Below are positions 11,400 through 37,743 of a DNA stretch of 38,258 nucleotides, piece after piece (the first letter of the stretch is position 1; each line of letters opens with the position of its first letter). A model generated the notes under the pieces. The model saw only the letters and a list, made by a program, of their open reading frames with translations. It did not search any database and was not told where the DNA came from. The position numbers were made by a program, and so were the translations under genes. The DNA comes from Aneurinibacillus terranovensis DSM 18919 (GTDB lineage: Bacteria; Bacillota; Bacilli; Aneurinibacillales; Aneurinibacillaceae): the NCBI RefSeq assembly GCF_000430625.1, contig NZ_AUMJ01000057.1, positions 1-38,258 of the forward strand, read 5' to 3'.

Positions 11400-12996
11400 T
11401 TAATGATGGGTTTTAAACTGGTTGGTTATTTCCTCAAGCGTGTTTGCCAGTTCATTTAGGGCTTCCGCATCTTTGGCAATCTGGTGGGAGGCAGCCGCCT
11501 GCTCCAGGCTAACTGCACTGACCTGCTGCGCCCCGGCGGAAGCTTCCTCCGTTACACCGGCGATGGCTTCTACATTGGCCCCAACCTTTGCGCTTTTATC
11601 TTCAAGCAGATTCATTGAACTTACAAGCTCATGCGCCTGTTTCACCGCTTTATCGATGGACGTGTTAATTAACGTGAAAGATTGAGCGGTTGTTTCCACC
11701 ATTTTTACACCATCGCTGACATTACCCTGTCCGTCTTCAATGGAGCGGATAGCCAGATGCGTTTGCTTCTGCGTATCCACAACGATTTGTTCGATGTTGC
11801 GGGCCGCATGTGAGGTCTCTTCAGCCAGCTTTCGGACTTCCTCGGCAACGACCGCGAATCCTTTCCCGTGTTCTCCGGCCCTCGCCGCTTCGATACTGGC
11901 ATTCAAGGCAAGCAGGTTTGTCTGTGTGGCAATATTGGTGATTAATTGGACTATCTCGTTAATTTCTTTTGTTTTCTCCCCGAGTTCACGCATCAGCGAA
12001 ACGTTATGTTCTACCGTATCATTTATTTCTGTCATTTTATCCATCGTATTTTTCGCTTCCAGCTGACCCAGCTCGGAAGTATGGCGCGCTTCATTAAATA
12101 TGCTGAGCATTTCATTCGTAATCATATTCACTTGTTTGATGGTGTCAACCATATCACTGATTTCACCCGATATTTCCTGAACGGATACAGAAATATCGGT
12201 TGTCCCATTGGCAAGGTCAGAAATCGTGATGGCGACCTGTTCCGCCGCGTCCTTTGTTTCTTTGCTGCTGATTTCCATGGTTTCAGAAGATACCTTTAAG
12301 CTTTGGGAGGCTTCTTTTACTTTTAGAAGCAGCCCCTGCATGCTGTCGACCATATCATTAAAATACTGACTGAGCTGGCCTACCTCATCTTTGGAATGCA
12401 CCAATGTTTTTGTCGTAAGGTCACCTTCCGCAAGCCGCTGGGTTAGCTGACTCAATCGTTGAATCGGTCGGACGAGCCGGGTAGAGAAAACGACAAGAAC
12501 AAAAATGGTAAAAATAAGAACAAGCGCCGCTGTTACAAATGAGAGCTTGGCCAGGTAAGATATCTGCGAAGTTGCCTCACTCACCGGTGCTGTAATGACG
12601 ATTCCCCAATCAGCCAGGCTGCATTTTTTGTAAAACGCGTACTTATCGATCCCATCAAACGTATATTCAATAAACCCGCTCTTTCCCTGCATCGTAAGAT
12701 CAATGGCATCGGACAACTCTTTGCTGCCAATGCTATGTAAGTTAAACTTCAAAATATATTCTGCTTTAGGGTGGGCAATGGCAGTTCCCTGGTTGTTAAA
12801 CATATAGGCGTATCCTGTTTGACCCAATTTTTGTGATTTCACGACTTCGCTAAGCTTGTCCGCAAGAATCGTTCCACCAAGCACTCCTACAACTTTATTC
12901 CCCTGATAAAGCGGACTTGACACGACAACAACCATCTTATTGGTAGCCCTTGATATTAACGGGTCGGTTACCACGGTCTTTCCCTGCATGCTTTCT
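11400..12996 (-). pseudogene. Methyl-accepting chemotaxis protein, C-terminal part (split by IS element)
   Basis: 532 codons downstream of the insertion (529 from the first ATG at 12989). Contents in order: the end of a Cache-type sensor domain ([50 protein letters not shown]), transmembrane helix 2 ([19 protein letters not shown]), a HAMP domain ([18 protein letters not shown]) and the full signalling domain with the CheA/CheW-contacting tip [47 protein letters not shown]. Joined to the N-terminal part it makes a 658-residue receptor of normal length. As separated, this half lacks TM1 and most of the ligand-binding domain. Confidence 0.9.
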
Positions 12997-13108: not shown

Positions 13109-14215
13109 TTAGGCTAACAGTCGCAGCCCTTCGTTTTTGATATTGATCGAAGCATTCCAATCCCTGTCTATCACAAGCCCGCATTCGCATTGAAATACAC
13201 GTTCGGAAAGAGACAACTTCTCTTTCACTTGACCACAACTTGAACAAGTCTTAGAAGATGGAAACCACTTATTTATTTTGATAAGTTTCTTCCCTTGCCC
13301 TTCCAACTTGTATTGGAGAAATGTCGTAAACATGCCCCATGCATTATCGGCAACACTTTTGCCGAAGTTGAGTGCTTGTGACATTCCCTTCATGTTGAGG
13401 TCTTCAATAACCACGCAGTCATACCGTTTCGGTAATTTGTGCGATTCTTTATGCAGAAAGTCTTTCCGCTGGTTTGCAATCTTTTCGTGTAGCTTTGCTA
13501 CTTTCAATCGCTGTTTGTGCCAACGATTAGACCCTTTATTTCTGCGTGACAAAATACGCTGTTCTTTCGCTAATTTTTCTAAGGCTTGACGATAGAAACG
13601 AGGGTAATTGGTTTTCTTACCTTCTTCGCTATCAACAAATAACCCATTCATGGAAAAATCTAAACCAACAACGGCTTGTACTTCTTTTTGTATTGGTTGA
13701 TGTTCATATTCTGTGAGAACTGAAATATAGTATTGTCCTGTTTTTGTTCGAGAAACCGTACAAGACTTGATGATATGATGAGGCGGAATTTCTCGATGTT
13801 GTTTGATTTTGACAAGTTTGAGTTTCGGTAATTTGATGTAGCCATCCAACAGCATAATGTTTCCGTTGACCACATTGGTTGTATACGACTGTCTTGCCTT
13901 ACGGCTTTTGAACTTTGGAAATTCAGCACGACCAGAAAAGAAGCTCTTGTATGCCTTTTGCAAATGGAGTTGAGCATTTGCCAACGCAAGACTGTCTACT
14001 TCTTTGAGCCACGCGAACTCCTTTTTGTATTTAGCAGGAGTCGGAAATTTTTGTTTTTTCAACATTTCCTTGTCGTCCTTGAATTGCTCATACATTTCCT
14101 TTCGTTCAGCCAGCATTTTGTTGTAGACAAAACGAACACAACCGAAGGTTTTTGCAAGAAGTTGTTCTTGTTTTTTTGTTGGGTACAGACGGAACTTATA
14201 GGCTTTGTTTGCCAT
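13109..14215 (-). CDS. tnpB: RNA-guided nuclease TnpB (IS605 OrfB family)
   Basis: 368 residues, full length, beginning MANKAYKFRLYPTKKQE. The RuvC-like active site is complete: Asp186 in AVVGLDFSMNG, Glu271 in VVIEDLNMKGM and the acidic pair Asp350/Asp352 in IDRDWNASINI. A zinc ribbon lies between them (C324-x2-C327, C343-x-C345). The N-terminal HTH/WED-type part is normal. TnpB is the ancestor of Cas12: it cuts double-stranded DNA matching its reRNA next to a short 5' motif and helps the element persist. GGGG precedes the ATG. Its partner transposase gene tnpA is decayed, so this copy could act but should not move by itself. Confidence 0.93.
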   Translation of the reverse strand: MANKAYKFRLYPTKKQEQLLAKTFGCVRFVYNKMLAERKEMYEQFKDDKEMLKKQKFPTPAKYKKEFAWLKEVDSLALANAQLHLQKAYKSFFSGRAEFPKFKSRKARQSYTTNVVNGNIMLLDGYIKLPKLKLVKIKQHREIPPHHIIKSCTVSRTKTGQYYISVLTEYEHQPIQKEVQAVVGLDFSMNGLFVDSEEGKKTNYPRFYRQALEKLAKEQRILSRRNKGSNRWHKQRLKVAKLHEKIANQRKDFLHKESHKLPKRYDCVVIEDLNMKGMSQALNFGKSVADNAWGMFTTFLQYKLEGQGKKLIKINKWFPSSKTCSSCGQVKEKLSLSERVFQCECGLVIDRDWNASINIKNEGLRLLA

Positions 14216-14546: not shown

Positions 14547-14616
14547 CCGAAATTCATCTCCCACTTTCACTGGCGCTGTCGCACCTTCACGTTTAGAAGT
14601 GGGAGACTTCTTTCGG
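14547..14616. repeat. Left-end hairpin of the IS200/IS605 element
   Basis: CCGAAA (14547-14552) pairs with TTTCGG (14611-14616), and ATCTCCCACTT (14556-14566) with AAGTGGGAGA (14597-14606). This subterminal imperfect palindrome is what the family's transposase recognises; it stops seven bases short of the border at 14623. Confidence 0.75.
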
Positions 14617-14623
14617 AATAATG

Positions 14624-15003
14624 TTAAAATAGGGACGGTCTGAAATATCAACGGCTTTTCCCATAGAGGTTACGACGTTTTTTCCCGTTCCGTTATTTGA
14701 AACAAAAAACATCTCGAAGTCATGGTGTGCCTGCAATTGCTTCATAAAAAAATCGATTTGTTTCTGTGGGATATGGCCATTAACTTCGTCGGAATTGGCC
14801 ATGGTCGTGATAATATTCATTTTGTCCTGTACCCAATCATCGACTCTGCCCTGAATAAATGTCAGTTTGTTTGCCGCTTCTTCCTGAAAATTCGTTGTTA
14901 AAAATTCTTGTGCCTTATAGTGGTTGATATAGGCGATTACGCTCAACGATACAATGAAAATAGGAATAATAAGAAGTAAGAGCTTTGATCGAAGCGTTTT
15001 CAT
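14624..15003 (-). pseudogene. Methyl-accepting chemotaxis protein, N-terminal part (split by IS element)
   Basis: 126 codons upstream of the insertion. They contain TM1 (LLLLIIPIFIVSLSVIAYI, residues about 8-26) and the first part of a Cache sensor domain (LTTNFQEEAANKLTFIQGRV, FFVSNNGTGKNVVTSMGKAV, DISDRPYF). The split codon AA|A (14625-14624 plus 12996) encodes the lysine after PYF in the reconstructed protein. As it stands, translation runs ten codons into the element and stops at 14593. The mcp promoter must lie in 15004-15178, an AT-rich interval where I can assign nothing firmly. Confidence 0.88.
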
Positions 15004-15220: not shown

Positions 15221-17141
15221 CTACATATTTACCTGCTTATCCATGGTGTTTGGTTCCCGATAGAGGGCGGCGTTCTTCCTTTGTCTTTTCTCTTTATAAA
15301 TAGCAAGCACCGTATAAAGCGAAGGAACGACAATAAGCGTAAGCATGGTGGAGAATAGGAGCCCCGCAATAATTGTGACCGCCAGCGGTTTAAATAAAAC
15401 CTCTCCCGAGAACGCCAGCGGAAGCAGACCCGCAACGGCGGTCATCGTAGTTAGCAGAATCGGGCACAGCCTGGCCTCTCTGGCAGAAATCACCGCTTGC
15501 CTCAACTCTATACCCTCGCGGCGGGCCTCCTCAATAAATTCAATAAGAACAATCCCATTTCGCACAACGATACCGGACAGTGAAATCGCACCCATCATCG
15601 TCATAAATCCGAGCGGAGTCTGCGTAACAAACAGCCCGATTAAGCTTCCCGCCAGTGCGAGAAAGATGGTACTCATCACGAGCAGCGGAAGGCTAAGCGA
15701 ATAAAACTGAATGGCCATCAGGGTAATAATGAGGAAAACGACAACGATGGAAAGCTTGCCCATATCAATAAAGATACCGGTCTGCTCTGATGTTTCCCCG
15801 CCCACTTCCCACCGGTATCCTTCCGGGAAGGAGACTTTGTTTAGCAGCGGTTTAATTTGATTCATGACTTCGGTGGCTGTACGCCCCTTTACATTACAAA
15901 ACACTTCCACTTCCCTTGAGAGATTGCGATGCGGAATCTTTGCTATTGTGAACGCCGGTTTGATGCTGACCAGTTCAGAAAGAGGAATTTGCACACCGCG
16001 TGCGTTGGTGACACTTAGCCTCTGAAACACGGTAAAAGGATTTTCCTTGGCCTTCTCGGAATACATTTTTATATCAAATAAATCCTTTCCGCTATCGAAC
16101 TGACTGACGGTTATCCCTTCCCCGACAAGGCGGAGGGTGCGGGACAAATCCGTATAGTTCACAAGCTTCTGCGACCCTTTCATTCTGGGAATACACAGAT
16201 TCCTTTTTTGCCCAGGCAGGCAGCGACTTATCTAAAGAATGCATCATCGCATCCACACTGCGCTGAAGCGAGGGGACGTCATTCCCGATTTCCGCAGTGA
16301 TGCTGAGCGATACGCTTGGTTTTCCATTGTGATAGGCATAAAGTGTAGGCTTGACGGTTGTAAGCGTAACATGGCCCACATCTTTTAAATAGACCGGAAA
16401 GCCGTCAGCTGTACGCGCTACAATGACTTGATTTAATTCATCCGGGTTGTGGGATTCAGCAAGTTTAAGCTGGTATGTACGGTCATTGACGTCGAAATCA
16501 CCAATCGGCATCTTTTCATTCTCCGTTTTAACGGCATTCATCACCTGACCCCAGGTAATGCCGTACTGCTGGAGGCGCGGGGTATCAATATCTACCCTCA
16601 CTTCCTGGTCTGGCAGCCCATCAATAACTACATCCGCCACACCGGGAATCGTGCGGAGCTGATCCTTCCATGTCTTCAGCATATCCCGCAGACTGTAGAG
16701 CTGTTCCCGGCTATCGGCGGCAATGTTAAACGTTTGTATAAAGGTACGGTTTAAATCATCCTGGATGACAGGCTGTTTCGCATCCGCGGGCAAATCTGCT
16801 TCAGCATCTTTGACTTTCTTGCGTAGTTCGTCCCATTTCTGTTTGGGATCCACCCCATCTTTCACTTCTACGACAATATTGGAAACGCCTAAGCTGGATG
16901 TCGAGGAAATGGATTTTAGATCCTGAAGTTCGTTGATTCGCTCTTCGATTTTTTTTGTCACAGTTTGCTCTACCTTTTCAGGGGTCGCGCCGGGATACAC
17001 GGTTGTTACCGTCGCTATGTTCACGACAATATCCGGTTCTTCCTGCTTTGGCAGTTGAAAAAAGCTTAGAAATCCTACCATAACAATCATGACGAAAAAG
17101 AGAATCGTTATTTTTTGTTTTTTGATGATATATTCGATCAC
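15221..17141 (-). pseudogene. RND-family efflux permease with large internal deletion
   Basis: The first 335 or so codons from ATG 17141 are a normal RND start: TM1 (KITILFFVMIVMVGFLSFF), QEEPDIVVNIATVTTVYPGA and the porter subdomains. The frame then runs out near 16180. A second frame (16183-15221) matches only the last third of such proteins: part of the second porter region, TM8-TM12 and motifs PLGFMTMMGAISLSGIVVRN and ARLCPILLTTMTAVAGLLPL. About 380 residues are missing, including TM2-TM7 and the TM4 acidic residues essential for proton flow. An intact pump would be about 1000 residues. The gene overlaps the adaptor gene by 4 bp, so it was the second gene of the pump operon. Confidence 0.88.
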
Positions 17142-21218: not shown

Positions 21219-22184
21219 TTATCCCTTCGTTACAGAGGCGTTGACGGCTTCCGGGGATGTTAGCTTGTCGTAAAACTCGGTGAACTGATCGCGGTCGTCA
21301 CTGTCACGTAGCGCCATGGCAACGCGCGGGTGCTCATTCAGAACGCCGGAGATCATATACGGAATAATGTAGCCCCACTCCCATTTCTCGCGCATGGCCA
21401 GCATATGCTTCTCAATTACTTCAAGTACCGGCTTCAGTTCATAACGTGGATTCTTGAGATAGCTGACGAGAAGTTCTGTCGTGCAGTTGCCCGCTGCACG
21501 ACCCATGCCATACACGGATGAATCGAGGAATGTCACACCGTTTTGCACGCCGACCAGGGTGTTGGCGAACGCCAGTTGCATATTGTTGTGCATATGAATA
21601 CCAAGCAGCTTATTCGGGAGAAGCGTGCGGAACTTTTTCACAAGATGCTCTGTATTTTTCGGATCAAGGCTTCCATACGAGTCGACGACATAAACGACAT
21701 CGACCGGGCTTCTGTTTACTTCTTCGAACGCTTCCATCAGTTCCTGCTCATGCACGTGGGACAGCGCCATGATATTCAGGGTAGTCTCGTAGCCCATATC
21801 GTGGAACTTTTGCACGAGGTCCAGCCCTTTGTCAACATCCCGTATGTAGCAGGCGACGCGGATCATATCGAGTGCGCTCTGCTCACGCGGCAAAATATCG
21901 TTCTCATCGACGCGGCCAATATCGCAAAGTGCCGACATTTTTGTAAATTTCTTTTCCGGGAAAATCTCTTTCAGAAAGCGGTCGTCCAAAAACCTCCACG
22001 GATTCGGCTCCGTTGCATTCAACAGCTTGGGGGAGTTCTTATAACCAACTTCCATATATTCAACACCGGCCGCATTTAGCCCTTCATACAAATCGCGAAC
22101 GAAATCGACGCTGAAGTCCCAGTTATTCACCAACCCCCCGTCACGAATCGTGCAGTCTAAAATTTTACATTGTACCGTACTCAT
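21219..22184 (-). CDS. DRE-TIM metallolyase-family aldolase (HMGL-like)
   Basis: About 321 residues from ATG 22184 (GGAGG 12 bases upstream); the open frame extends 39 codons further without conserved sequence, and that region is the leader. Motifs are LDCTIRDGG (Arg14, Asp15), the VDSYGSLDP segment (about 168-176) and the metal ligands HMHNN (His197, His199). These place it with 4-hydroxy-2-oxovalerate aldolase, HMG-CoA lyase and isopropylmalate synthase relatives, which form or break C-C bonds next to a carbonyl using a divalent metal. It lacks the DmpG C-terminal domain, so the substrate is open. A strong promoter precedes it and a broken GntR regulator and FAH fragment follow. Confidence 0.85.
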   Translation of the reverse strand: MSTVQCKILDCTIRDGGLVNNWDFSVDFVRDLYEGLNAAGVEYMEVGYKNSPKLLNATEPNPWRFLDDRFLKEIFPEKKFTKMSALCDIGRVDENDILPREQSALDMIRVACYIRDVDKGLDLVQKFHDMGYETTLNIMALSHVHEQELMEAFEEVNRSPVDVVYVVDSYGSLDPKNTEHLVKKFRTLLPNKLLGIHMHNNMQLAFANTLVGVQNGVTFLDSSVYGMGRAAGNCTTELLVSYLKNPRYELKPVLEVIEKHMLAMREKWEWGYIIPYMISGVLNEHPRVAMALRDSDDRDQFTEFYDKLTSPEAVNASVTKG

Positions 22185-22306
22185 AATGCTTTCCCCGCCT
22201 CCATTTATTTTTTCTTTTTGTTCCCTATGTTGCTTATGTGTTATGTTTCTGTTCTTTCTACTTTTCAAGCGGTCATTCTTTATGACTTTATTATTTTGCA
22301 CTTCGC

Positions 22307-22432: not shown

Positions 22433-23407
22433 TTACTTTAAAATATCCGTCAACGTGGCAAGCGTTTTTTGTCTGTCTAACCGAGCCTCCATCGCCTGAT
22501 CAAAAGTGACGGCTAAGAAACGCGAGGTGCTCATGGGCCTTGATTGAGCGACAAGATCCAGGTCAGGGCTGATAACCGTTCCGATGGTCACAAATCCACC
22601 TCCGCTCGTTCCATCATTTAATAAAATAATAACCTCTTCTTCGTTAGGAACGATAATCACACCTATCGGATAAGCGATATCGACCACACTTGAATTCGAA
22701 TCCGCTGCTCCGAAAGGAACTTCTACATTGCGAAACCCGATGGAAGCTCCTTGATAACGGTAAGCCACCCGATTCGACTCGGTGGATACATGCCATTCAG
22801 AATTCAAAAAGGATTTTACACCTTCATCACTGATGAGCGCTGCAGAGAGCCCCATCACCACACGAATTTCATGTGAACCAGAATAATCCGGGATAAAAGA
22901 AGGCGGAATCCGCTTTCCTACTTGCTTAAAGACGCCTGGAAGAGGTTCACCCACCGGCAGCAGATCTCCAGCCATCAATTTTCGACCCTGATATCCCCCA
23001 TATCCACTTAATTCATAGGTGGATCGGCTGCCCAGCACTTCTGGAACATTGATTCCGCCAGAAACACATAAATATGTTTTAACCCCTTTTTTAGAAAAGG
23101 TAAAACGTAAAATATCTCCCTCTTGCACCCTTACGTTTTCCCACATGGGGATGGGCTGTTTATTAATCGTAGGCTGTACAGTCGCTCCGGTAATCGCGAT
23201 GACGGTACTTTTTTGAAATTCGATCGTCGGCCCAAGCAAGCTGATTTCCAGTGCTGCATAATCCAAGGGATTGCCTAATAGGATGTTTCCCGCCATGAAT
23301 GAATACTTATCCGCCGCTCCAGAAGGAGGGACACCCAGATGGTAACTCCCATACCTTCCCAGGTCTTGAACGGTGGTTTCTAGCCCAGGTTCAATAATCC
23401 GCAACAC
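22433..23407 (-). CDS. pxpC: 5-oxoprolinase subunit C / KipA-type carboxyltransferase, copy 1
   Basis: 324 residues from GTG 23407, GGAGG eight bases upstream; the codon directly follows the pxpB stop, so the pair is co-translated. Opening IEPGLETTVQDLGRYGSYHL, then GVPPSGAADKYSFMAGNIL, GSRSTYELSGYGGYQGRKL and the closing SDP-type VDIAYPIGVIIVP segment are standard PxpC/KipA. The family is homologous to half of the carboxyltransferase domain of urea carboxylase; with PxpA and PxpB it opens 5-oxoproline to glutamate using ATP in other bacteria. This copy has no accB/accC partners next to it, only a scar of accC and pxpA behind the regulator. Confidence 0.9.
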   Translation of the reverse strand: MLRIIEPGLETTVQDLGRYGSYHLGVPPSGAADKYSFMAGNILLGNPLDYAALEISLLGPTIEFQKSTVIAITGATVQPTINKQPIPMWENVRVQEGDILRFTFSKKGVKTYLCVSGGINVPEVLGSRSTYELSGYGGYQGRKLMAGDLLPVGEPLPGVFKQVGKRIPPSFIPDYSGSHEIRVVMGLSAALISDEGVKSFLNSEWHVSTESNRVAYRYQGASIGFRNVEVPFGAADSNSSVVDIAYPIGVIIVPNEEEVIILLNDGTSGGGFVTIGTVISPDLDLVAQSRPMSTSRFLAVTFDQAMEARLDRQKTLATLTDILK

Positions 23408-24292
23408 TTAAAATTCCTCCATCAGTTGTAAAATATAAGATTTTCCTTTTTTGAAATAGGCTTCTGGTGAAAATTCAACTTCTTTCATTCGAAAACGATA
23501 GACTCCCCGATATACTTCATCAACAATTCGGTTATATTCGGATTCATCAACCGAGCGATGCTTCCAAAGATCGCCAGGTCTTGCAAGAAAGAGAGAGTTT
23601 TTAAAATCCTTTAAGCGTTGTTTTTTATCTACGATAGGAGCGGCGCTCATCCCAATAAGTTGATAACTACCGGGACCAGACGAGGAATAAATAAAACTAA
23701 AAGCCCCTCCTAAACCAACCGCTTGAGGAGGTGTGTCTGTCCGAGGGCTTAAATATTTCGGTGTTTGAATCATTTGTTCACGAGGAATCCCCAATGGAAA
23801 TTCCCAACCCGAACCTGGAATAAAGCCCATCATGGTAATTAAAAAAGGCATGGAGGTATGGGCTTCAATAAACGCTTCTTTATCCCTAAATCCATTCATC
23901 TTCATGACAAACTCAAAGTTTGATAATTCAGGTGTCGGATGACGGTGCTTAAACCGCTCGGAATATTCTCTTGTAATTGGGTCATCATACCAGATTGGAA
24001 TTTCTACGATTCGGATGGATAAGTTCAATTCCGACGGATTGCTTTTGGTCATATCAATTTCTTTTAAGCAGTCTAACAAATCGTAGGCTGAAAGAACTTC
24101 CGGATTAAATCGCACCAGGTAAGAGGCGTTAGACGGACAAATATCCAAAACACCGGGAATTTGACGCCGGCGAAGTTCCTGGGTGATCGCTAACGTTTTA
24201 AAATTACTTTCAGTGCTCATCTCTTTGGAAATTTCCGCAACAATATATTCATCTCCTCCAAAATGAAATCTGGTTTCCGGCACGGTGAACAA
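23408..24292 (-). CDS. pxpB: 5-oxoprolinase subunit B / KipI-type protein, copy 1
   Basis: 294 residues, TTG start at 24292 preceded by GGGGG six bases away; a GTG nine bases downstream is the alternative. The typical PxpB/KipI features are FGGDEYIVAEISKEM, the DICPSNASYLVRFNPEVLS segment, MMGFIPGSGWEF, PRTDTPPQAVGLGGAF and YQLIGMSAAPIVDK. It begins 11 bases after the regulator stop, so it is in that operon. It is only moderately similar to copy 2 (roughly 40-45 percent identity by eye), so the two are old paralogues or separately acquired. It pairs with the adjoining PxpC. Confidence 0.9.
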   Translation of the reverse strand: MFTVPETRFHFGGDEYIVAEISKEMSTESNFKTLAITQELRRRQIPGVLDICPSNASYLVRFNPEVLSAYDLLDCLKEIDMTKSNPSELNLSIRIVEIPIWYDDPITREYSERFKHRHPTPELSNFEFVMKMNGFRDKEAFIEAHTSMPFLITMMGFIPGSGWEFPLGIPREQMIQTPKYLSPRTDTPPQAVGLGGAFSFIYSSSGPGSYQLIGMSAAPIVDKKQRLKDFKNSLFLARPGDLWKHRSVDESEYNRIVDEVYRGVYRFRMKEVEFSPEAYFKKGKSYILQLMEEF

Positions 24293-24303
24293 GCGGATCC
24301 CCC

Positions 24304-26370
24304 CTAATTCAACAATTTTTTCATGCGACGGCTGATGGTTGCAGGACTCACTTCCAGAATTTCAGACACCTTAGCTGCCGTTCCGTATTTTTGTAAACCT
24401 AATGTGATTAACTGTGTTTCTAATTTAGCTATCGCTTTCTTTAGAGGCATCAATTCTAACTTAAACGGCTGATCCATTTTCGTCTCTGTTTCCGCATAAA
24501 GGATATGAAGCACTTCATCACGGTTGATGAAATCTGTCCGTGAAGTAACCAAAAGCCGCTCGATGACATTTTGTAATTCCCTAACGTTTCCATTCCAGTG
24601 ATAATTCTCAAGCACTTCTAGTGCTTCACGAGATAAGTTTTTCTTCTTTAGGTACTTTCGGTTAAATTGCTGCAGGAAATGGAGAGATAGCGAGAAAATG
24701 TCAGCTTTTCGTTTTCGCAAGGGAGGTATATGGATGGGAATCACGTGTAATCGATAATAAAGGTCTTCTCGAAACCGATTTTCCTGAACGAGCTCCCATA
24801 GATTTTTATTCGTTGCCGCAATGACCCGGAAATCCACTTTAATCATTTTTGTTCCGCCCACCCTTGTAAATTCCTGTTCCTGAAGAACTCGCAGCAGCTT
24901 AACTTGCATACTTAAAGGCAATTCTCCAATCTCATCCAAAAAGATAGTTCCCTGATGAGCCAATTCAAAAAAGCCTGCTTTCCCCTTGTCATCTGCCCCG
25001 GTAAAGGCTCCTTTTTCATAACCGAATAGTTCACTTTCCATCAACGGTTCAGGAATGGCCCCACAATTGACTCGGATAAAGGGATGAAGCCGGCGATTTC
25101 CCCAATCATGAATCGCATAAGCAATAACATCCTTTCCGACGCCTGATTCCCCGTGAATAAGAACCGAGGAATCTACAAGAGCAACCCGCCGGATCTCTTC
25201 GACAACGCGTTCCATTTCCTGTGAGCGATAAATCAATTCTTTTTCACGAACTTGATGACTTTTCAGCTCTTCGAGTTTTTGTTTATACTCCTCTGACTTC
25301 ATCTGCTCTTTGACTAATTTCTCCCGCAATTGGTTCACCTCGGTGATATCGCGCGAGACAATAATCACTCTAGTGATTTGTTCATCGTAAAAAACAGGAG
25401 TGGCAACCGACCATACACGCCGACCTTGTTTCGTCTCTTGAATTCCAGTTATCTTCTTTTGTTGTTTCAGGCACAAATCGACGATATTCGGTTGAAATAA
25501 ACCTTGCTCTTCTAACTCTTTTACATTTCGTCCAATCATTTCTTCGTCGTTTTCCAGATCCCAATATTCTTTTAAAAACGTACCGGCTACACGTATCACT
25601 TCGCCTTTTGGATTGACAACCATGATTTGCTCGTGTGAGGAAGAATAAATAGCTTGAAGGTCTTCGTTTAATTGGCGCACAAACTCCAATTCCTGCACGG
25701 CTTCTTCCCACTGCTCCCGAAGGAAGAAAATATGGACCAACCCTTCAATATTTCCATTAACATATAGAGGGGTAAAATTTCCGATCATATGTTTAAAGTT
25801 CAAGTAACTATCTACACTCACAAATGGCTTTCCTGCCAGAACATCATCCAGGTTTTGGCTAATATGTAAAAGCGATTTGTAATTGCGCTGGAGTAACAAT
25901 GTATCAGATAACCCTAAAATCTTCTCTGCTACTCCATTAATAAATGTAATTTCCAATGCAGAATTCGTGGTAATCATTCCGACTCCTGCCCCGTCAAGGA
26001 GTTGATTCATTTGTGTTAATCGAAGTTCATGTATACGATTATGGGCTTGTTCAGTCGTACTGTAACCCACGAGCTTACCGTCAGTGTCGACCCCAATGTA
26101 AATCGAAATATTATGGTAAAATTCAACTGCACCATCCAAATTCACAATTAACAAATCTTGTCGATAATCAATTGTTTGTTGAAGAGTAGAATTCGTATAG
26201 ATCTGTTGTAAAAAAAATGAGGAATGAATATATCCCTTTACCTCCCCCTCATCTGCGACGATTGCAATATCCATAGAGTTTTCCACAAATATTCGTAATA
26301 CGTCCTGAATTGTTGCGTCCGAGGATACGGTTATGGGAGACGGTTGTAAAATCTGCCTCCACGTAAACAT
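24304..26370 (-). CDS. Sigma-54-dependent transcriptional activator with CBS and PAS sensor domains
   Basis: About 688 residues from ATG 26370 (GGAGGAG nine bases upstream; the TTG at 26379 overlaps that site). Order: CBS-like pair (about 10-115), PAS 1 (about 120-220, MNQLLDGAGVGMITTNSALE), PAS 2 (about 235-345), coiled coil (about 345-375), and the AAA+ domain with Walker A GESGVGKD (about 407-414), the sigma-54-contacting GAFTGA loop (about 454-459), Walker B GTIFLDEIGEL and RFREDLYYRL. The tail is a short Fis/TyrR-like HTH (AAKVSEILEVSPATISRRMK). Such activators hydrolyse ATP to open sigma-54 promoters. It precedes pxpB-pxpC in one operon and is the obvious regulator of the sigma-54 promoter at 37727-37743. 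Confidence 0.93.
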   Translation of the reverse strand: MFTWRQILQPSPITVSSDATIQDVLRIFVENSMDIAIVADEGEVKGYIHSSFFLQQIYTNSTLQQTIDYRQDLLIVNLDGAVEFYHNISIYIGVDTDGKLVGYSTTEQAHNRIHELRLTQMNQLLDGAGVGMITTNSALEITFINGVAEKILGLSDTLLLQRNYKSLLHISQNLDDVLAGKPFVSVDSYLNFKHMIGNFTPLYVNGNIEGLVHIFFLREQWEEAVQELEFVRQLNEDLQAIYSSSHEQIMVVNPKGEVIRVAGTFLKEYWDLENDEEMIGRNVKELEEQGLFQPNIVDLCLKQQKKITGIQETKQGRRVWSVATPVFYDEQITRVIIVSRDITEVNQLREKLVKEQMKSEEYKQKLEELKSHQVREKELIYRSQEMERVVEEIRRVALVDSSVLIHGESGVGKDVIAYAIHDWGNRRLHPFIRVNCGAIPEPLMESELFGYEKGAFTGADDKGKAGFFELAHQGTIFLDEIGELPLSMQVKLLRVLQEQEFTRVGGTKMIKVDFRVIAATNKNLWELVQENRFREDLYYRLHVIPIHIPPLRKRKADIFSLSLHFLQQFNRKYLKKKNLSREALEVLENYHWNGNVRELQNVIERLLVTSRTDFINRDEVLHILYAETETKMDQPFKLELMPLKKAIAKLETQLITLGLQKYGTAAKVSEILEVSPATISRRMKKLLN

Positions 26371-26470
26371 GCTGCTCAACTCCTCCCCATTTATATATAC
26401 AATTATAATTTTATCAAACTTTTTTAGCTAGCCAAGCCGCAGGAGCCGCGATAGCCTTAGTTGCACTAAT

Positions 26471-30165: not shown

Positions 30166-30822
30166 CTATATTAGAAATTGAGCTGACTCTAATACATCAG
30201 CTTTTGCACCCAGCAAAGTTTGAAAAGCATAAAGTGAACCAAGAATCTCATTCGGTTCAATAGTTTTCATGATAAAAACAATTTCGGATCGTTTTTTACT
30301 TGTCTCAGGCCATTCATCTAGATGCTTCGGCGGATGGATGATATGTTGTACTCCATTAAGTAATACCGGGCCCTCTTCCCCTACATCTAACAACCCCTTA
30401 ACCCGAAGTACCTTCTCACCGTTAGCGTGGAGCAGCATGCTTAACCACAATCCGAAGGCATTCCAATCAATGGGTTTATTAAATGTGAAGGAAATCGATT
30501 GAGTACTGGATGGAAGATGTCCAGTTTGATATTGATCCATTATGGAAGTTGGGTTTTTTCTTACATTTAAGAAAAGGGCAGGCACATCTACATCTCCATA
30601 AACCGCAGCATGAACTTGTGCAGTCGGGTTAATAAGAGAAAGTTTATTAATAATGATTTCCTTTTCATCTTCAGTTATCAAATCACTTTTGGTGAGAATA
30701 ATCTTGTCAGCAACAACAATTTGTCTTGATTGTTGTTTAAAATAAAGAGGGATTTTATGCCGGAAGAGAATCGATTCGATTCGTCTTCCAGCTTTGTTTT
30801 TCAGCCATAAAGTGGTTATTTG
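30166..30822 (-). pseudogene. CobW/COG0523 GTPase lacking its N-terminal G domain
   Basis: The open frame runs from 30822, but no convincing start exists; a TTG at 30681 begins the longest conventional ORF (171 codons). The readable part carries KQQSRQIVVADKIILTKSDL (the G4 region, TKSD), NPTAQVHAAVYGDVD and the CobW C-terminal domain (SISFTFNKPIDWNAFGLWLS, VLRVKGLLDVGEEGPVLLNG, RSEIVFI). The GKTTLL P-loop, the CxCC metal-binding motif and switch regions are missing. COG0523 proteins deliver zinc or other metals to client enzymes with GTP. It overlaps the end of the hydrolase gene upstream by a few bases. Truncation makes function doubtful. Confidence 0.75.
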
Positions 30823-33411: not shown

Positions 33412-34188
33412 TTATGCTCGTACACCTAACACTTCACGAACGGGGGCAATTTGAATATCATTTTCTTTTAGAGCATGTACAATGGCTTTCGCCAATTGTG
33501 CTGCTCCCGGCGTATCCCCATGAATACAAACAGTATCCGCTTGGACGGTGGCCTCTTCCCCATCTGCCGTAGTTACACGCCCGTCTTTGATCATTCGAAC
33601 GACACGTTGCGCCATTTGGGAATAATCTTCGATTTGCGAGCCTTTACGCGTTAATACGATGGAACCATTCTTCGTATGTTGACGATCCGAATACACTTCG
33701 AGAGCAACTGGAATCCCCAGCTTTTCGCCGACATAAGCGACAGCAGAGTTATTTAAGGCATACACAACCGTATTAGAGTCGATTTCAGCGATGGACTCCA
33801 AAATCGCTTGAGCCAGGTTTTCATCTTCCATCGCCATCATAAACAAAGCACCATGGGGCTTACAGTGTTGAAGACGGAGACCTGAAGCCGATGCAAATTC
33901 ACGTAATGCTCCCATTTGGTAGGTAATATAATCCTTTATTTCATAAGGAGTACAATTCATATACCGCCTTCCAAAGCCGATCAAATCCGGAAAACCGGGA
34001 TGCGCTCCAATGGCTACGTGATATTGTTTAGCCAATTCAACCGTTTTTCTCATCACATGGGGATCTCCAGCGTGATATCCACATGCAATGTTGGCTGATG
34101 TGATATATTTCATCATTTCTTCATCTTGACCCAATGAATACAGACCAAAACTTTCACCCATATCACAATTTAAATCTACTTTCTTCAT
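33412..34188 (-). CDS. pxpA: 5-oxoprolinase subunit A (LamB/YcsF family)
   Basis: 258 residues from ATG 34188, which has GAGGTG six bases upstream; the six codons before it (from 34206) are the ribosome-site region. MKKVDLNCDMGESFGLYSLG, ANIACGYHAGDPHVMRKTV, GAHPGFPDLIGFGRRYM, HCKPHGALF and the end CIHGDTPGAAQLAKAI are the family hallmarks. In PxpABC, this subunit is required with PxpB and PxpC for ATP-dependent opening of 5-oxoproline. It is the last gene of the operon that also encodes biotin carboxylase and biotin carrier, implying that its substrate may be carboxylated first. A near-identical 3' end occurs as a scar at 26516-26555. Confidence 0.93.
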   Translation of the reverse strand: MKKVDLNCDMGESFGLYSLGQDEEMMKYITSANIACGYHAGDPHVMRKTVELAKQYHVAIGAHPGFPDLIGFGRRYMNCTPYEIKDYITYQMGALREFASASGLRLQHCKPHGALFMMAMEDENLAQAILESIAEIDSNTVVYALNNSAVAYVGEKLGIPVALEVYSDRQHTKNGSIVLTRKGSQIEDYSQMAQRVVRMIKDGRVTTADGEEATVQADTVCIHGDTPGAAQLAKAIVHALKENDIQIAPVREVLGVRA

Positions 34189-34206
34189 GTTCAGCACCTC
34201 TTTCAC

Positions 34207-35553
34207 CTAAACAGTTTCCAATATTTTATCAAGGAATCGTGTGGTGTACTCGCCTTTGCGAAATTCTCCATGTTGGATAATCCACTGGAGCAATGTTTGA
34301 TTTGTGGTAATTCCCTCCACCCGAACATTTTCCAAAGCTAGATTCATCTTTTCGATTGCTTCTTCACGAGTAAATCCATGCACGATCATCTTCCCAATCA
34401 TCGGATCGTAGAAAGGTGTTACTGTATTCCCTTCTTTAATAGCAAAATCCAATCGAATATTCTCTTCAGGAAGAACCAATCGATGGACTGTACCAGGTGA
34501 AGGAAAGAAAGTTTTAGGATCTTCCGCATACAATCGACACTCAATGGAATGACCCGTACAACGAATGTCGTCTTGTTGATAGGGCAAAGGCTGCCCGGCT
34601 GCCAGTTGCATCTGAAGTTCGACTAAATCAATACCGGTAATTTCCTCGGTCACCGGATGTTCTACCTGTAATCGGGTATTCATCTCCAGGAAATAGAAAT
34701 TCTTTTGGTCGTCGAAAATAAACTCCATGGTTCCTACCGTTGTATATCCAATCTGTTTTACACCACGAATTGCCGTTTCCAATAATTTTTGGCGCGTTTC
34801 TTCATCAAGGAATGGAGAAGGGCTCTCCTCTAGTACTTTTTGATTCCGCCGTTGCACGGAACACTCTCGCTCAAATAAATGAATGGCATTTCCCTCATAA
34901 TCTCCAGCAATTTGCACTTCAATATGCCGGGGATTAGAAATCCACTTTTCCAAAAAGAGTGTCCCATCCCCGAAGGACGAAACCGCCCTCTGTTTCGTGG
35001 TGGCATATACTTTTCTAAGTTCTTCCGCATCATGCACCAGTTGCATGCCTATCCCACCGCCACCGGCACTGGCTTTTAGCATCAATGGATAACCAAGATT
35101 TTCAGCAATTTGTAAGGCTTCTTCTACCGACTCAAGTGAACCGTCCCAACCCGGAACGACAGGAACCCCGGCTTGTTGCATCTGACGGCGGGATTCAATT
35201 TTACTCCCCATTAATTCGATGATTCGAGCATCGGGTCCAATGAAAGTAATTCCTTCTTGCTCACAACGCCGGGCAAAAACTGCATTTTCGGATAGAAAGC
35301 CATACCCTGGATGTACCGCCGAAGCTCCCGTTTGTTTTATTGCTTCGATTACTTTTTCTACATCAAGATAACTTTTTTTCGCTTGAGCAGGTCCTATGCA
35401 AAGTGCTTCATCGGCTTCGTCGACAAAAGGAGCTAAGGCATCCGCTTCTGAATAGACCGCTACCGTTTCAATGCCAAGGCGTTTACACGTACGAATAATA
35501 CGGCGAGCGATTTCACCGCGATTGGCAATCAGAATTTTCTTAAAGTAACTCAA
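34207..35553 (-). CDS. accC: Biotin carboxylase subunit
   Basis: 448 residues, TTG start at 35553 with TGGAGG eight bases upstream. ATP-grasp biotin carboxylase: KILIANRGEIARRIIRT, HPGYGFLSEN (81-90), the glycine loop ASAGGGGIGM (161-170), ERECSVQRRNQKV and the active-site EMNTRLQVEHPVTEEITG (290-307). It carboxylates biotin on the carrier protein using ATP and bicarbonate. An acetyl-CoA carboxylase role is less likely because it lies inside a pxpB-pxpC-accB-accC-pxpA operon with no accA/accD; a dedicated subunit for the KipI/KipA-type carboxyltransferase fits better. The stop is 19 bases before the pxpA ATG. Confidence 0.93.
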   Translation of the reverse strand: MSYFKKILIANRGEIARRIIRTCKRLGIETVAVYSEADALAPFVDEADEALCIGPAQAKKSYLDVEKVIEAIKQTGASAVHPGYGFLSENAVFARRCEQEGITFIGPDARIIELMGSKIESRRQMQQAGVPVVPGWDGSLESVEEALQIAENLGYPLMLKASAGGGGIGMQLVHDAEELRKVYATTKQRAVSSFGDGTLFLEKWISNPRHIEVQIAGDYEGNAIHLFERECSVQRRNQKVLEESPSPFLDEETRQKLLETAIRGVKQIGYTTVGTMEFIFDDQKNFYFLEMNTRLQVEHPVTEEITGIDLVELQMQLAAGQPLPYQQDDIRCTGHSIECRLYAEDPKTFFPSPGTVHRLVLPEENIRLDFAIKEGNTVTPFYDPMIGKMIVHGFTREEAIEKMNLALENVRVEGITTNQTLLQWIIQHGEFRKGEYTTRFLDKILETV

Positions 35554-35572
35554 TATGATTCCTCCATTTGAT

Positions 35573-35818
35573 TTATTTCAAAACTACGATTGCGATTTCC
35601 TGACCCGCGTCAACGATATCTTCCGAGTCTACAGAAAAGCGTTCTACAATCCCATCGTGTTCCGCTTTAACCTCATAAAAGTTTTTCATGACCTCAATAA
35701 GACCGATAGTGTCTCCCGCTTTTACTTCTTGTCCTTCAACGACGAACTCCGGCTGATCCGGACTCGGTTTACGATAAAAGACTCCGGGAACCGGGGAAAT
35801 GATAGATTGGTTTGCCAT
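35573..35818 (-). CDS. accB: Biotin carboxyl carrier protein (biotinyl domain only)
   Basis: 81 residues from ATG 35818; AAAGGAGA precedes it, and the ORF's seven earlier codons overlap pxpC. It is a bare biotinyl domain: ISPVPGVFYRKPSPDQPEFV, VKAGDTIGLIEVMKNFYEV with the biotinylated Lys45 in the E-V-M-K-N motif, and a C-terminal half GIVERFSVDSEDIVDAGQEI. Standard AccB proteins have about 150 residues with a proline/alanine-rich N-terminal segment; this one has none, as in dedicated carriers. It overlaps neighbouring genes' control regions, so it is translated with accC and pxpC. Requires BirA for biotin attachment. Confidence 0.93.
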   Translation of the reverse strand: MANQSIISPVPGVFYRKPSPDQPEFVVEGQEVKAGDTIGLIEVMKNFYEVKAEHDGIVERFSVDSEDIVDAGQEIAIVVLK

Positions 35819-35831
35819 GACATTTTCTCCT

Positions 35832-36809
35832 TTACGCATTCATAATAATGCTTTTAATTTTAGAAATCTTTTCTTTCGTATCATGTCGAGCTCTTAGCGC
35901 TTCTTCCAACGTTACCGAAACAAAACGAACTTTATCATTCGTTTTGACTTGTGCCATACGATTTAAATCCGTACTAATGATTGTCGCAATCGTAGCGTAC
36001 CCACCGCCTGTTACTGCATCATTGAGAAGAGCGATTGGTTCCACTCCGTCCGGCACTTGTATAGAACCGATAGGATAACCTAAATCGACCACGTTGGACG
36101 GATTGCTTCCGGCCCCGAAAGGTTGCTCGCGGGGAACAAAATGTAAACGTTCCCCTTTAAAGCGATAACCCACACGGTTCGCTTCCGGGGTAACCGTCCA
36201 CTCAAGGGTGAGAAAGCGATCTTTACTTTCCTCTGTCAAGCGATAGCTACAAAGCCCCAGCACGACACGAATTTCGTGATTTTTTGAGAATTTCGGAATA
36301 AACTCAAAAGGAATAGATGTTCCAACTGCAATAGGTACTGGAGAATCGTTTCCAATTTGGAGGACATCTCCTTCTTTTAAAGCCCGCCCTTCGAATCCGC
36401 CGATCCCGCAAAGTGTATAGGTAGATCGGGAACCCATGATTGGCTCTACACTAATCCCCCCAGCTATTGCCAGGTAGACACGTGCACCGGATTTGACGAA
36501 ATCAAACGAAAGAACATCCCCTGCTTTCATCTCTAGCGTTTGCCACAATGGACAAGCAACACCATTGATTTTCGGGGGAATTTCTCCTCCTGTAATAGCA
36601 ATCACCGCATCTTGTTCGAAAGCTAATTCAGGTCCCATGTAAGTGATTTCTAATGCCGCAGTCCCCTCCGGATTCCCGACCAAAAGATTTGCAATTGTAT
36701 ACGAATACTGATCCATGGCTCCTGACGGAGGCATTCCGATCTCGTAATAGCCGATCCTTCCTCGATCCTGCACCGTCGTTTGAAGTCCGGGTTTCAATAC
36801 TTTAATCAT
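35832..36809 (-). CDS. pxpC: 5-oxoprolinase subunit C / KipA-type carboxyltransferase, copy 2
   Basis: 325 residues, ATG 36809 with GGGAGGTT upstream and overlapping the pxpB end by 8 bp. LKPGLQTTVQDRGRIGYYEI, GMPPSGAMDQYSYTIANLLV, ALEITYMGPEL, GSRSTYTLCGIGGFEGRAL and VDLGYPIGSIQVP match the family. Homologous to the KipA half of the urea-carboxylase carboxyltransferase domain. Unlike copy 1 it is directly joined to genes for a biotin carrier and a biotin carboxylase, so it is the better candidate for a real biotin-dependent carboxyltransferase rather than a plain ATP-dependent 5-oxoprolinase subunit. Confidence 0.93.
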   Translation of the reverse strand: MIKVLKPGLQTTVQDRGRIGYYEIGMPPSGAMDQYSYTIANLLVGNPEGTAALEITYMGPELAFEQDAVIAITGGEIPPKINGVACPLWQTLEMKAGDVLSFDFVKSGARVYLAIAGGISVEPIMGSRSTYTLCGIGGFEGRALKEGDVLQIGNDSPVPIAVGTSIPFEFIPKFSKNHEIRVVLGLCSYRLTEESKDRFLTLEWTVTPEANRVGYRFKGERLHFVPREQPFGAGSNPSNVVDLGYPIGSIQVPDGVEPIALLNDAVTGGGYATIATIISTDLNRMAQVKTNDKVRFVSVTLEEALRARHDTKEKISKIKSIIMNA

Positions 36810-37677
36810 GGTATAACCTCCCTAACACATATCCGGAAAATTTTTTTGGATCGTCCATGACTTCTTGCGGTGTGTAACATATCTCCTTTGTTCGATAACG
36901 GAAGGTTCCGGCAGCTACTTCTTTTTGAATTTGTTCATATTCATCCATATCAATGGCCCGGTAACGGAAAATATCGCCTTGGCGTGGGAATACCATTGTT
37001 TGGACGAAATCCGGCAGTCTTTGATCCCGGTCGAAAACAGGCGCAGCCGCCACACCAAACAATTGATATCCTCCTGCTCCCTGTACCGGATAGATACAAG
37101 CAAAAGCTCCTCCAAATCCAAAAGCACGCTCCGGTGTGAAGGTTCGCGGACGGACATATTTCGGCACCTCGAGTTGTTGTTCACGATTCACCATCTGGAA
37201 ACAAAAAGGAAGCCCTGGAACAAAACCAATCATCGAAACAAGGAACGGATAATCGGTAATCGCTCGAATAAAATCTTCTTTCGATGCATAACCGTTAATC
37301 CGGGCCGCATATTCAATATCAGTAACCGTTGGATCTTGATGACGATCACGAAACTTCATCAACGCCTCATGGGTCCACGGATCTTCAAATAGAATTGGAA
37401 CATCGACGATACGCGAAGAAATTTCAATACCTTCCAAATCCGAAACAGACGCTTCGATTTCTTTTAACACCTGAATCAATTGATCAGGAGATAAAACATC
37501 CGGATCCACCCGAATCATATAAGAAGCGTTGGAAGGACAAATATCTAAAATGCCATCTAAAGCTTTTTCCCTTAATTTTCGCGTAATGGCCATTCCGCGA
37601 AAGTTAGATTCCAAATTCATATCTTCCGCTAATTCGACAAAGACAAATTCGTCGCCACCGTATTCATAACGCGTCAT
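36802..37677 (-). CDS. pxpB: 5-oxoprolinase subunit B / KipI-type protein, copy 2
   Basis: 292 residues from ATG 37677, chosen because GAGGTGAA lies just upstream and MTRYEYGGDEFVFVELAEDM is the normal family start; the frame is open 18 codons further. LDICPSNASYMIRVDPDVLS, MIGFVPGLPFCFQMV, KYVRPRTFTPERAFGFGGAF and YQLFGVAAAPVFDRDQRL are characteristic. It is the first gene of the five-gene operon and lies about 50 bp below a sigma-54 promoter. B. subtilis KipI, a relative, was first found as an inhibitor of the sporulation kinase KinA, but that role is not expected of an operon with accB/accC. Confidence 0.93.
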   Translation of the reverse strand: MTRYEYGGDEFVFVELAEDMNLESNFRGMAITRKLREKALDGILDICPSNASYMIRVDPDVLSPDQLIQVLKEIEASVSDLEGIEISSRIVDVPILFEDPWTHEALMKFRDRHQDPTVTDIEYAARINGYASKEDFIRAITDYPFLVSMIGFVPGLPFCFQMVNREQQLEVPKYVRPRTFTPERAFGFGGAFACIYPVQGAGGYQLFGVAAAPVFDRDQRLPDFVQTMVFPRQGDIFRYRAIDMDEYEQIQKEVAAGTFRYRTKEICYTPQEVMDDPKKFSGYVLGRLYHD

Positions 37678-37726
37678 ATTCTTCACCTCACCTATTTGAT
37701 TGCTATGCTGCTCCTTCTTTATCATT

Positions 37727-37743
37727 TGCAAAAGTCATGCCAA
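37727..37743 (-). promoter_or_regulatory. Sigma-54 (-24/-12) promoter of the pxpB-pxpC-accB-accC-pxpA operon
   Basis: On the minus strand TTGGCATGACTTTTGCA (37743-37727). Compared with the sigma-54 consensus TTGGCACG-N4-TTGCA, one of the 13 specified positions differs. The invariant GG and GC are exactly 10 bases apart. It lies 50 bases upstream of the pxpB start and predicts transcription from about 37715. Confidence 0.78.

Follow-up and report, generated by a model that had tools for sequence, protein, structure and literature searches.

A putative split urea carboxylase-like biotin enzyme encoded with a PxpA hydrolase in Aneurinibacillus terranovensis

The five-gene operon and its products

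Positions 1 to 38,258 of contig NZ_AUMJ01000057.1 of Aneurinibacillus terranovensis DSM 18919, called the window here, carry the gene group pxpB-pxpC-accB-accC-pxpA. These genes encode the two halves of a carboxyltransferase (CT), a small biotin carboxyl carrier protein (BCCP), a biotin carboxylase (BC), and a hydrolase of the PxpA family. They lie head to tail on the minus strand (33412-37731) with overlaps or gaps of about 20 nt at most (Table 1). pxpC overlaps pxpB by 8 nt and accB overlaps pxpC by 8 nt; 19 nt separate accB from accC, and there is no gap between accC and pxpA. An earlier note on this DNA had described five tightly packed genes for separate proteins, and this is confirmed by the open reading frames and by the family assignments, which were made from Pfam and NCBIfam profile matches. 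The matches of the operon proteins are all far above chance, and the gene order is found again in many genomes. The 81-residue BCCP of that note corresponds to a later Met of accB (about 81 aa); with the first ATG the protein has 88 aa. For pxpB the start codon is uncertain and may be the TTG at 37731 or, about 18 codons farther in, the ATG of MTRYEYGG. The window showed no match to an RNA family.

Table 1. Genes of the operon and of the second carboxyltransferase pair in the window
Gene	Position	Strand	Product and remarks
pxpB-like	36802-37731	-	CT subdomains C/D (CT_C_D); 309 aa as called
pxpC-like	35832-36809	-	CT subdomains A/B (CT_A_B); 325 aa
accB	35573-35839	-	small BCCP; biotinyl-Lys motif GLIEVMKNFYEV
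accC	34207-35553	-	BC; 448 aa; Biotin_carb_N, CPSase_L_D2, Biotin_carb_C
pxpA	33412-34206	-	LamB_YcsF/PxpA hydrolase, candidate ring-opening subunit
regulator	24304-26379	-	sigma-54-dependent activator, CBS-PAS-PAS-AAA-HTH
second pxpB-like	23408-24292	-	type 2; PKY lysine also present
second pxpC-like	22433-23407	-	type 2

Judged from their sequences, the BC and the BCCP look functional. AccC is identical to E. coli AccC at 12 of the 13 positions compared and keeps K116, K159, H209, K238, E276, E288, N290, R292, Q294, E296, and R338 (E. coli numbering). At the remaining position, H236N, the two urea carboxylases (UCs) compared have Asn as well. AccB passes the small-BCCP model NF005457 (109.7 bits, cut-off 87). 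The carrier lysine is invariant in all 59 BCCPs, linked or housekeeping, and the motif typical of the clan is [EG]-[VI]-M-K-[NTSQ]-F. PxpA passes the PxpA subfamily model NF003814 (341.5 bits, cut-off 226). No CT of the AccA/AccD type exists in the operon. Elsewhere in the genome there is a housekeeping accB-accC pair in the spoIIIA/nusB region of contig C12, with accD on contig C4. A third BC, the closest paralogue of the operon AccC (57%), is found in an acyl-CoA carboxylase-like cluster. Therefore, the operon is not the sole BC source of the cell.

The best NCBIfam match of PxpB is the UC model TIGR02712 (133.3 bits). Both CT proteins fall below the equivalog cut-offs of the families after which the earlier note had named them (PxpB, TIGR00370, 70.7 bits against 145.55; PxpC, NF045499, 237.2 bits against 500), and they are not orthologues of PxpB and PxpC. 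The whole-protein cut-off for UC is not reached either: four open reading frames score 580.8, 257.6, 133.3, and 24.2 bits against 1303.85 for TIGR02712. Neither PxpB nor PxpC matches a nucleotide-binding family. In AlphaFold models (mean predicted local distance difference test score 88 for PxpC and 82 for PxpB), the best structural match of PxpC is the UC/amidolyase of K. lactis (Z 39.3), in a near tie with E. coli YbgK (38.0). PxpB also matches K. lactis UC best, with Z 23.1 over 279 residues, whereas canonical PxpB proteins reach 16-18 over about 200. K1605 of K. lactis urea amidolyase is the general base of the UC CT (PMC5770610), and K191 of the window PxpB aligns with it. This column, whose alignment numbering is shifted by two residues owing to the start chosen, holds Lys in 96 of 97 sequences of this clan and UC (the exception is a truncated copy) and Arg in all 66 canonical PxpB sequences. 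The UC-like character that the earlier note gave to the CT halves is thus borne out by the TIGR02712 match, the structural match of PxpB, and the general-base Lys.

In an unrooted concatenated tree, the window CT type, fused UC, and canonical PxpBC form three separate clans. The CT pair of the window is therefore neither plain PxpBC nor plain UC, but a third CT clan. A FastTree grouping of fused UC as sister of the window clan hinges on the midpoint root and is not used as proof. A kinase-inhibitor role of the KipI type was also dropped, as nothing in the gene context points to such a role.

Association of carboxyltransferase genes with carrier and biotin carboxylase

A BCCP gene adjoins the CT genes in 54 of the 80 named relatives, often together with a BC gene. 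The order B-C-BCCP-BC-A is found in Aneurinibacillus, Ammoniphilus, Halobacillus, and Fictibacillus, and loci of Brevibacillus, Neobacillus, and Calidifontibacillus have a BCCP without a BC. CT-linked BCCP is also present in Rubrobacter, and in Pseudomonas the order A-BCCP-BC-B-C occurs. Modules of the five-gene type exist on plasmid records of Rhizobium, Shinella, Acidiphilium, Rubrobacter indicoceani, and the archaeon Natrinema. The module spans Bacillota, Actinomycetota, Proteobacteria, and one archaeon. The phylum survey used the window BCCP and adjacency, NF005457 alone being too unspecific below its cut-off. Within the window's taxonomic order, the small BCCP and this PxpC type are found in the same nine of 15 genomes and are adjacent every time, a match of 1 in 5005 by simple permutation with relatedness ignored. 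Co-occurrence of the pxpBC and accBC genes was a check proposed in the earlier note, and BC and BCCP do co-occur with this CT type across genomes. On the Acidiphilium plasmid, bioB (biotin synthase) lies directly downstream of the five-gene module (L190:9288-10268). The same CT clan stands with pxpA, and with no BCCP or BC nearby, in 25-26 Pseudomonas loci (e.g., L160).

The pxp-linked BCs are polyphyletic. In a tree of 27 sampled sequences, too few for a fine count of the origins, at least four changes are needed. A single origin is rejected by the approximately unbiased (AU) test both for all pxp-linked BCs (AU p 7e-55) and for those linked to this CT type alone (AU p 1e-7). On this phylogenetic evidence, BC is recruited repeatedly, also to canonical pxpABC. 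The pairing of one kind of CT with different BCs in different lineages speaks for function and against mere inheritance of gene order.

PxpABC has been reported from most bacterial genomes and was reportedly defined by Niehaus et al. in 2017. As a rule, canonical pxpABC has no such linkage; among 60 sampled Bacillota loci, all types counted, about 57 have no adjoining BCCP. Canonical pxpABC linked to BC/BCCP is found in Clostridia-like genomes with Nramp and ycsI genes (L066 and L086), in Lactiplantibacillus, rhizobia, Sinorhizobium, and a Klebsiella plasmid, and in two genomes of the window's own order (L253 and L254). In S. aureus, accBC exists inside a six-gene pxp operon (PMC11315280). Canonical pxpABC, for which the earlier note cites a description without biotin, thus gains BC/BCCP in several lineages, and for this reason biotin use in PxpABC-type enzymes may be general. 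Use of 5-oxoproline by C. glutamicum depends on the Nramp homologue PxpT (PMC13274462), and this connects some of the biotin-linked operons with 5-oxoproline itself. AccC matches near the clostridial pxp loci L050 and L051 were discarded as carbamoyl-phosphate synthase-like (22-24% identity).

Some canonical operons have fused genes. The Klebsiella plasmid (L202:484-6654) carries Nramp-pxpA-putative hydro-lyase-fused pxpBC-fused BC~BCCP, and a Sinorhizobium plasmid (L200:2536-6618) carries pxpA with fused PxpBC and fused BC~BCCP. These forms are halfway between split and fused UC. Rhizobial canonical pxp operons (L197, L198, L201, and L203) each carry two BCCP-like genes next to pxpBC and stand under regulators of the NAC type.

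Proposed mechanism and alternatives

The operon probably encodes a split UC-like biotin enzyme that is coupled to the PxpA hydrolase and activates a cyclic amide. That BC, BCCP, and CT make up one biotin-dependent carboxylase is very likely; the activation of a lactam is somewhat favoured. AccC would use ATP and bicarbonate to carboxylate biotin presumably attached to AccB. The PxpB-PxpC heteromer would then transfer the carboxyl group to the nitrogen in a cyclic amide, for which a lactam is the likeliest candidate. PxpA would act second and open the N-carboxylated, activated ring, and the resulting carbamate would fall apart into an amino acid and CO2. By analogy, the logic would be that of UC plus allophanate hydrolase.

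The likeness to known systems is partial. UC/urea amidolyase (K. lactis 3VA7 and 5I8I; TIGR02712) has the same BC, CT, and BCCP modules and the general-base Lys. However, UC is one chain while the operon encodes four proteins, the hydrolase of the operon is PxpA and not allophanate hydrolase, and the CTs belong to separate clans. PxpABC (E. coli YbgJKL, B. subtilis KipI/KipA/YcsF) shares the PxpA model and homologous PxpB and PxpC proteins with the same folds. It differs in that the operon has Lys instead of Arg at 191, has its own BC and BCCP, stays below the equivalog cut-offs, and has no adjoining Nramp transporter or ycsI gene. The acc-linked canonical operons (S. aureus, Klebsiella and rhizobial plasmids, Clostridia) likewise have BC and BCCP inside a pxp operon, but their CT is of the canonical clan, their BCCP is ACC-like (resembling that of acetyl-CoA carboxylase) or fused, and several include an Nramp-type 5-oxoproline transporter. 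The caprolactamase CapAB and hydantoinase HyuAB open lactams with ATP and bicarbonate; the bicarbonate requirement of ATP-dependent caprolactamase is a precedent (PMC8453981), although these proteins belong to unrelated families and use no biotin.

A solved complex brings homologues of these proteins together. PDB entry 9YX5 is titled 'Structure of the long chain acyl-CoA carboxylase complex from Mycobacterium smegmatis with MSMEG_0435-MSMEG_0436 bound'. The bound chains MSMEG_0435 and MSMEG_0436 are homologues of PxpC and PxpB, and the BC-BCCP subunit AccA3 is also in the entry. As is proposed for the operon, PxpB/PxpC homologues are associated with a BC-BCCP subunit; unlike in the operon, this partner is a fused BC-BCCP common to acyl-CoA carboxylases, and the CT is of the canonical type. 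In the literature searched, no paper was found that describes 9YX5 or the enzymatic role of its PxpBC homologues. Lombard and Moreira (2011) asked why UC-type CT genes are far commoner than UC BCs, and they offered two options: these CTs either use other BCs or have a different function (PMC3199775). Such CTs have been paired with BC/BCCP repeatedly and independently, and together with the solved complex this favours the option that the CTs use other BCs. The clustering of pxp and acc genes is already known and not new; public annotation has this module as well as the name 'biotin-dependent carboxyltransferase family protein'.

Neighbouring genes give clues to the substrate. A 4-aminobutyrate (GABA) transaminase gene (NF005376 cut-off passed) lies directly upstream in Halobacillus and Aneurinibacillus loci, and succinate-semialdehyde dehydrogenase (SSADH; TIGR01780 cut-off passed) is likewise directly upstream in Halobacillus. 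These neighbours suggest ring-opened products such as 4-aminobutyrate and hence 2-pyrrolidinone as a candidate substrate. Molybdenum hydroxylase with XdhC- and MobA-like genes is found upstream in Ammoniphilus, Brevibacillus, Neobacillus, Calidifontibacillus, and genus g216, and molybdenum-binding subunits are found in Rubrobacter and Natrinema. Such neighbours suggest prior oxidation of an N-heterocycle to the lactam. Genes of the hyuAB type occur at loci L113 and L088. In the window itself, no GABA transaminase, SSADH, molybdenum hydroxylase, or hyuAB-type gene adjoins the operon.

Several observations weigh against a biotin-dependent activation of a cyclic amide. The clusters of three relatives (L256, L257, and L259) have no pxpA. 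In 26 of the 80 loci, nearly all from Pseudomonas, A-B-C of this clan exist without acc genes nearby, and several Bacillota have BCCP without BC alongside; the partners in such loci must therefore come from elsewhere. The homologue in 9YX5 is of the canonical type, with Arg and not Lys at the K191 position. The biotinyl motif of the window has Asn, not Met, after the Lys, which is unusual, though the carrier Lys is clearly kept. The literature assumes that PxpBC phosphorylates 5-oxoproline (PMC13274462), and ATPase activity is cited for co-purified PxpB/PxpC (PMC8453981). Of the earlier proposal that a cyclic amide is carboxylated before PxpA opens it, the carboxylation part is strengthened by the functional look of BC and BCCP, their co-occurrence with the CT, and 9YX5; as for the ring-opening part, the three relatives without PxpA indicate that this step does not belong to the module everywhere.

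More tentatively, PxpABC-type enzymes in general, including the textbook 5-oxoprolinase, could be biotin- and bicarbonate-dependent, and the operon could be a dedicated version for another cyclic amide. ATP would then be spent by a BC, either dedicated or, when unlinked, borrowed from acetyl-CoA carboxylase; PxpBC would carboxylate the ring nitrogen, and PxpA would hydrolyse the activated ring. No test of the biotin-dependence of PxpABC-type enzymes was found in the literature searched. Attachment of CO2 to a cyclic amide ahead of its cleavage would, if right, change the view of how this enzyme family works, and carboxylation that makes amide bonds breakable would then be widespread in metabolism and not a peculiarity of urea. 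The idea that the 64 and 51 kDa subunits of P. putida component A are a BC-BCCP fusion and a PxpBC fusion is unsupported, because in eight Pseudomonas genomes the canonical B and C genes are separate, and no acc gene is near them in the six loci read.

It is unlikely that the operon encodes a split biotin-dependent carboxylase that carboxylates urea, a ureide, or some other acyclic amide to a lasting product, with PxpA acting on this product or elsewhere and one BC/BCCP serving two CT pairs. The CT catalytic residues are closest to those of UC, the three relatives without PxpA keep everything else, and two CT pairs do stand beside one BC/BCCP. However, the operon has no allophanate hydrolase (a nearby amidase scores 255.8 bits against the TIGR02713 cut-off of 511), pxpA is part of the operon in most lineages, and the GABA transaminase and SSADH neighbours point to ring-opened amino acids.

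Quite improbable is an ordinary ATP-dependent 5-oxoprolinase in which PxpBC phosphorylates the substrate, accB and accC being passengers or serving acetyl-CoA carboxylase. This is the mechanism assumed in the literature, and the reported ATPase and the lack of linkage between pxpBCA and accBC in E. coli agree with it. Yet the proposed phosphorylation rests on subunits without a nucleotide-binding family match, and those of the window stay below the PxpB and PxpC equivalog cut-offs. Moreover, housekeeping accB-accC and accD exist elsewhere while the operon has no accA or accD, BC has been recruited to pxp loci several times, 9YX5 shows physical association, and a canonical pxpBCA is present elsewhere in the genome. 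It is hardly to be expected that AccB and AccC are half of a second acetyl-CoA (or acyl-CoA) carboxylase whose co-regulation with pxp genes keeps metabolism in balance. The reading of S. aureus accBC in terms of fatty-acid synthesis (PMC11315280) and the acyl-CoA carboxylase cluster of the closest BC paralogue (57%) would allow it. Against it stand a small BCCP of a separate family whose distribution in the order matches that of PxpC exactly, the lack of a CoA-type CT in the operon, and linkage to the same CT in taxa that are only remotely related.

Second carboxyltransferase pair and neighbouring genes

As shown in Table 1, the window has a second CT pair beside a sigma-54-dependent activator. 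In the seven loci read for the order and relatives (L107/L258, L108, L110/L255, L116, L256, L257, and L259), the arrangement is pxpB-pxpC-BCCP-BC-(pxpA)-sigma-54 activator-pxpB2-pxpC2 with a single BC/BCCP set. By coordinates, the second pair lies within about 6-7 kb of the operon in all eight other operon-carrying genomes of the order. Because relatives place it close behind the same operon, the second pair probably belongs to this system and makes a poor control. The earlier note had offered it as a contrast without partners; no acc gene stands beside it in the window, but its position in relatives undoes the contrast. The second pair would probably use the same AccB and AccC on a related substrate. 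The canonical pxpB-pxpC-pxpA on contig C42 (L014:6341-8848) has no acc genes and serves as the unlinked contrast within this genome. Its neighbours are cytosine-permease-like and cytosine-deaminase-like genes and an IclR-type regulator.

The clusters without pxpA (L256, L257, and L259) keep CT-BCCP-BC, the sigma-54 activator, and the second CT pair. They are located downstream of molybdenum hydroxylase with CoxE/AAA, XdhC, and MobA-like genes.

The stretch of about 7 kb that separates pxpA from the regulator in the window holds a major facilitator superfamily transporter, a deacetylase-like gene, a CobW C-terminal fragment, an alcohol dehydrogenase, a short-chain dehydrogenase, and an amidase. 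The CobW gene (30166-30681) is an open reading frame for a stand-alone C-terminal domain without the GTPase part. An HMGL-like (DRE-TIM) aldolase-type protein, below all equivalog cut-offs, is encoded at 21219-22301 and adjoins the second CT pair. Farther away, an IS605 OrfB/TnpB-type gene (13109-14215) exists between apparent chemotaxis-receptor fragments (11400-12989 and 14593-15003). A gene for a resistance-nodulation-division-type efflux permease is apparently split by a frameshift (15221-16183 and 16092-17141).

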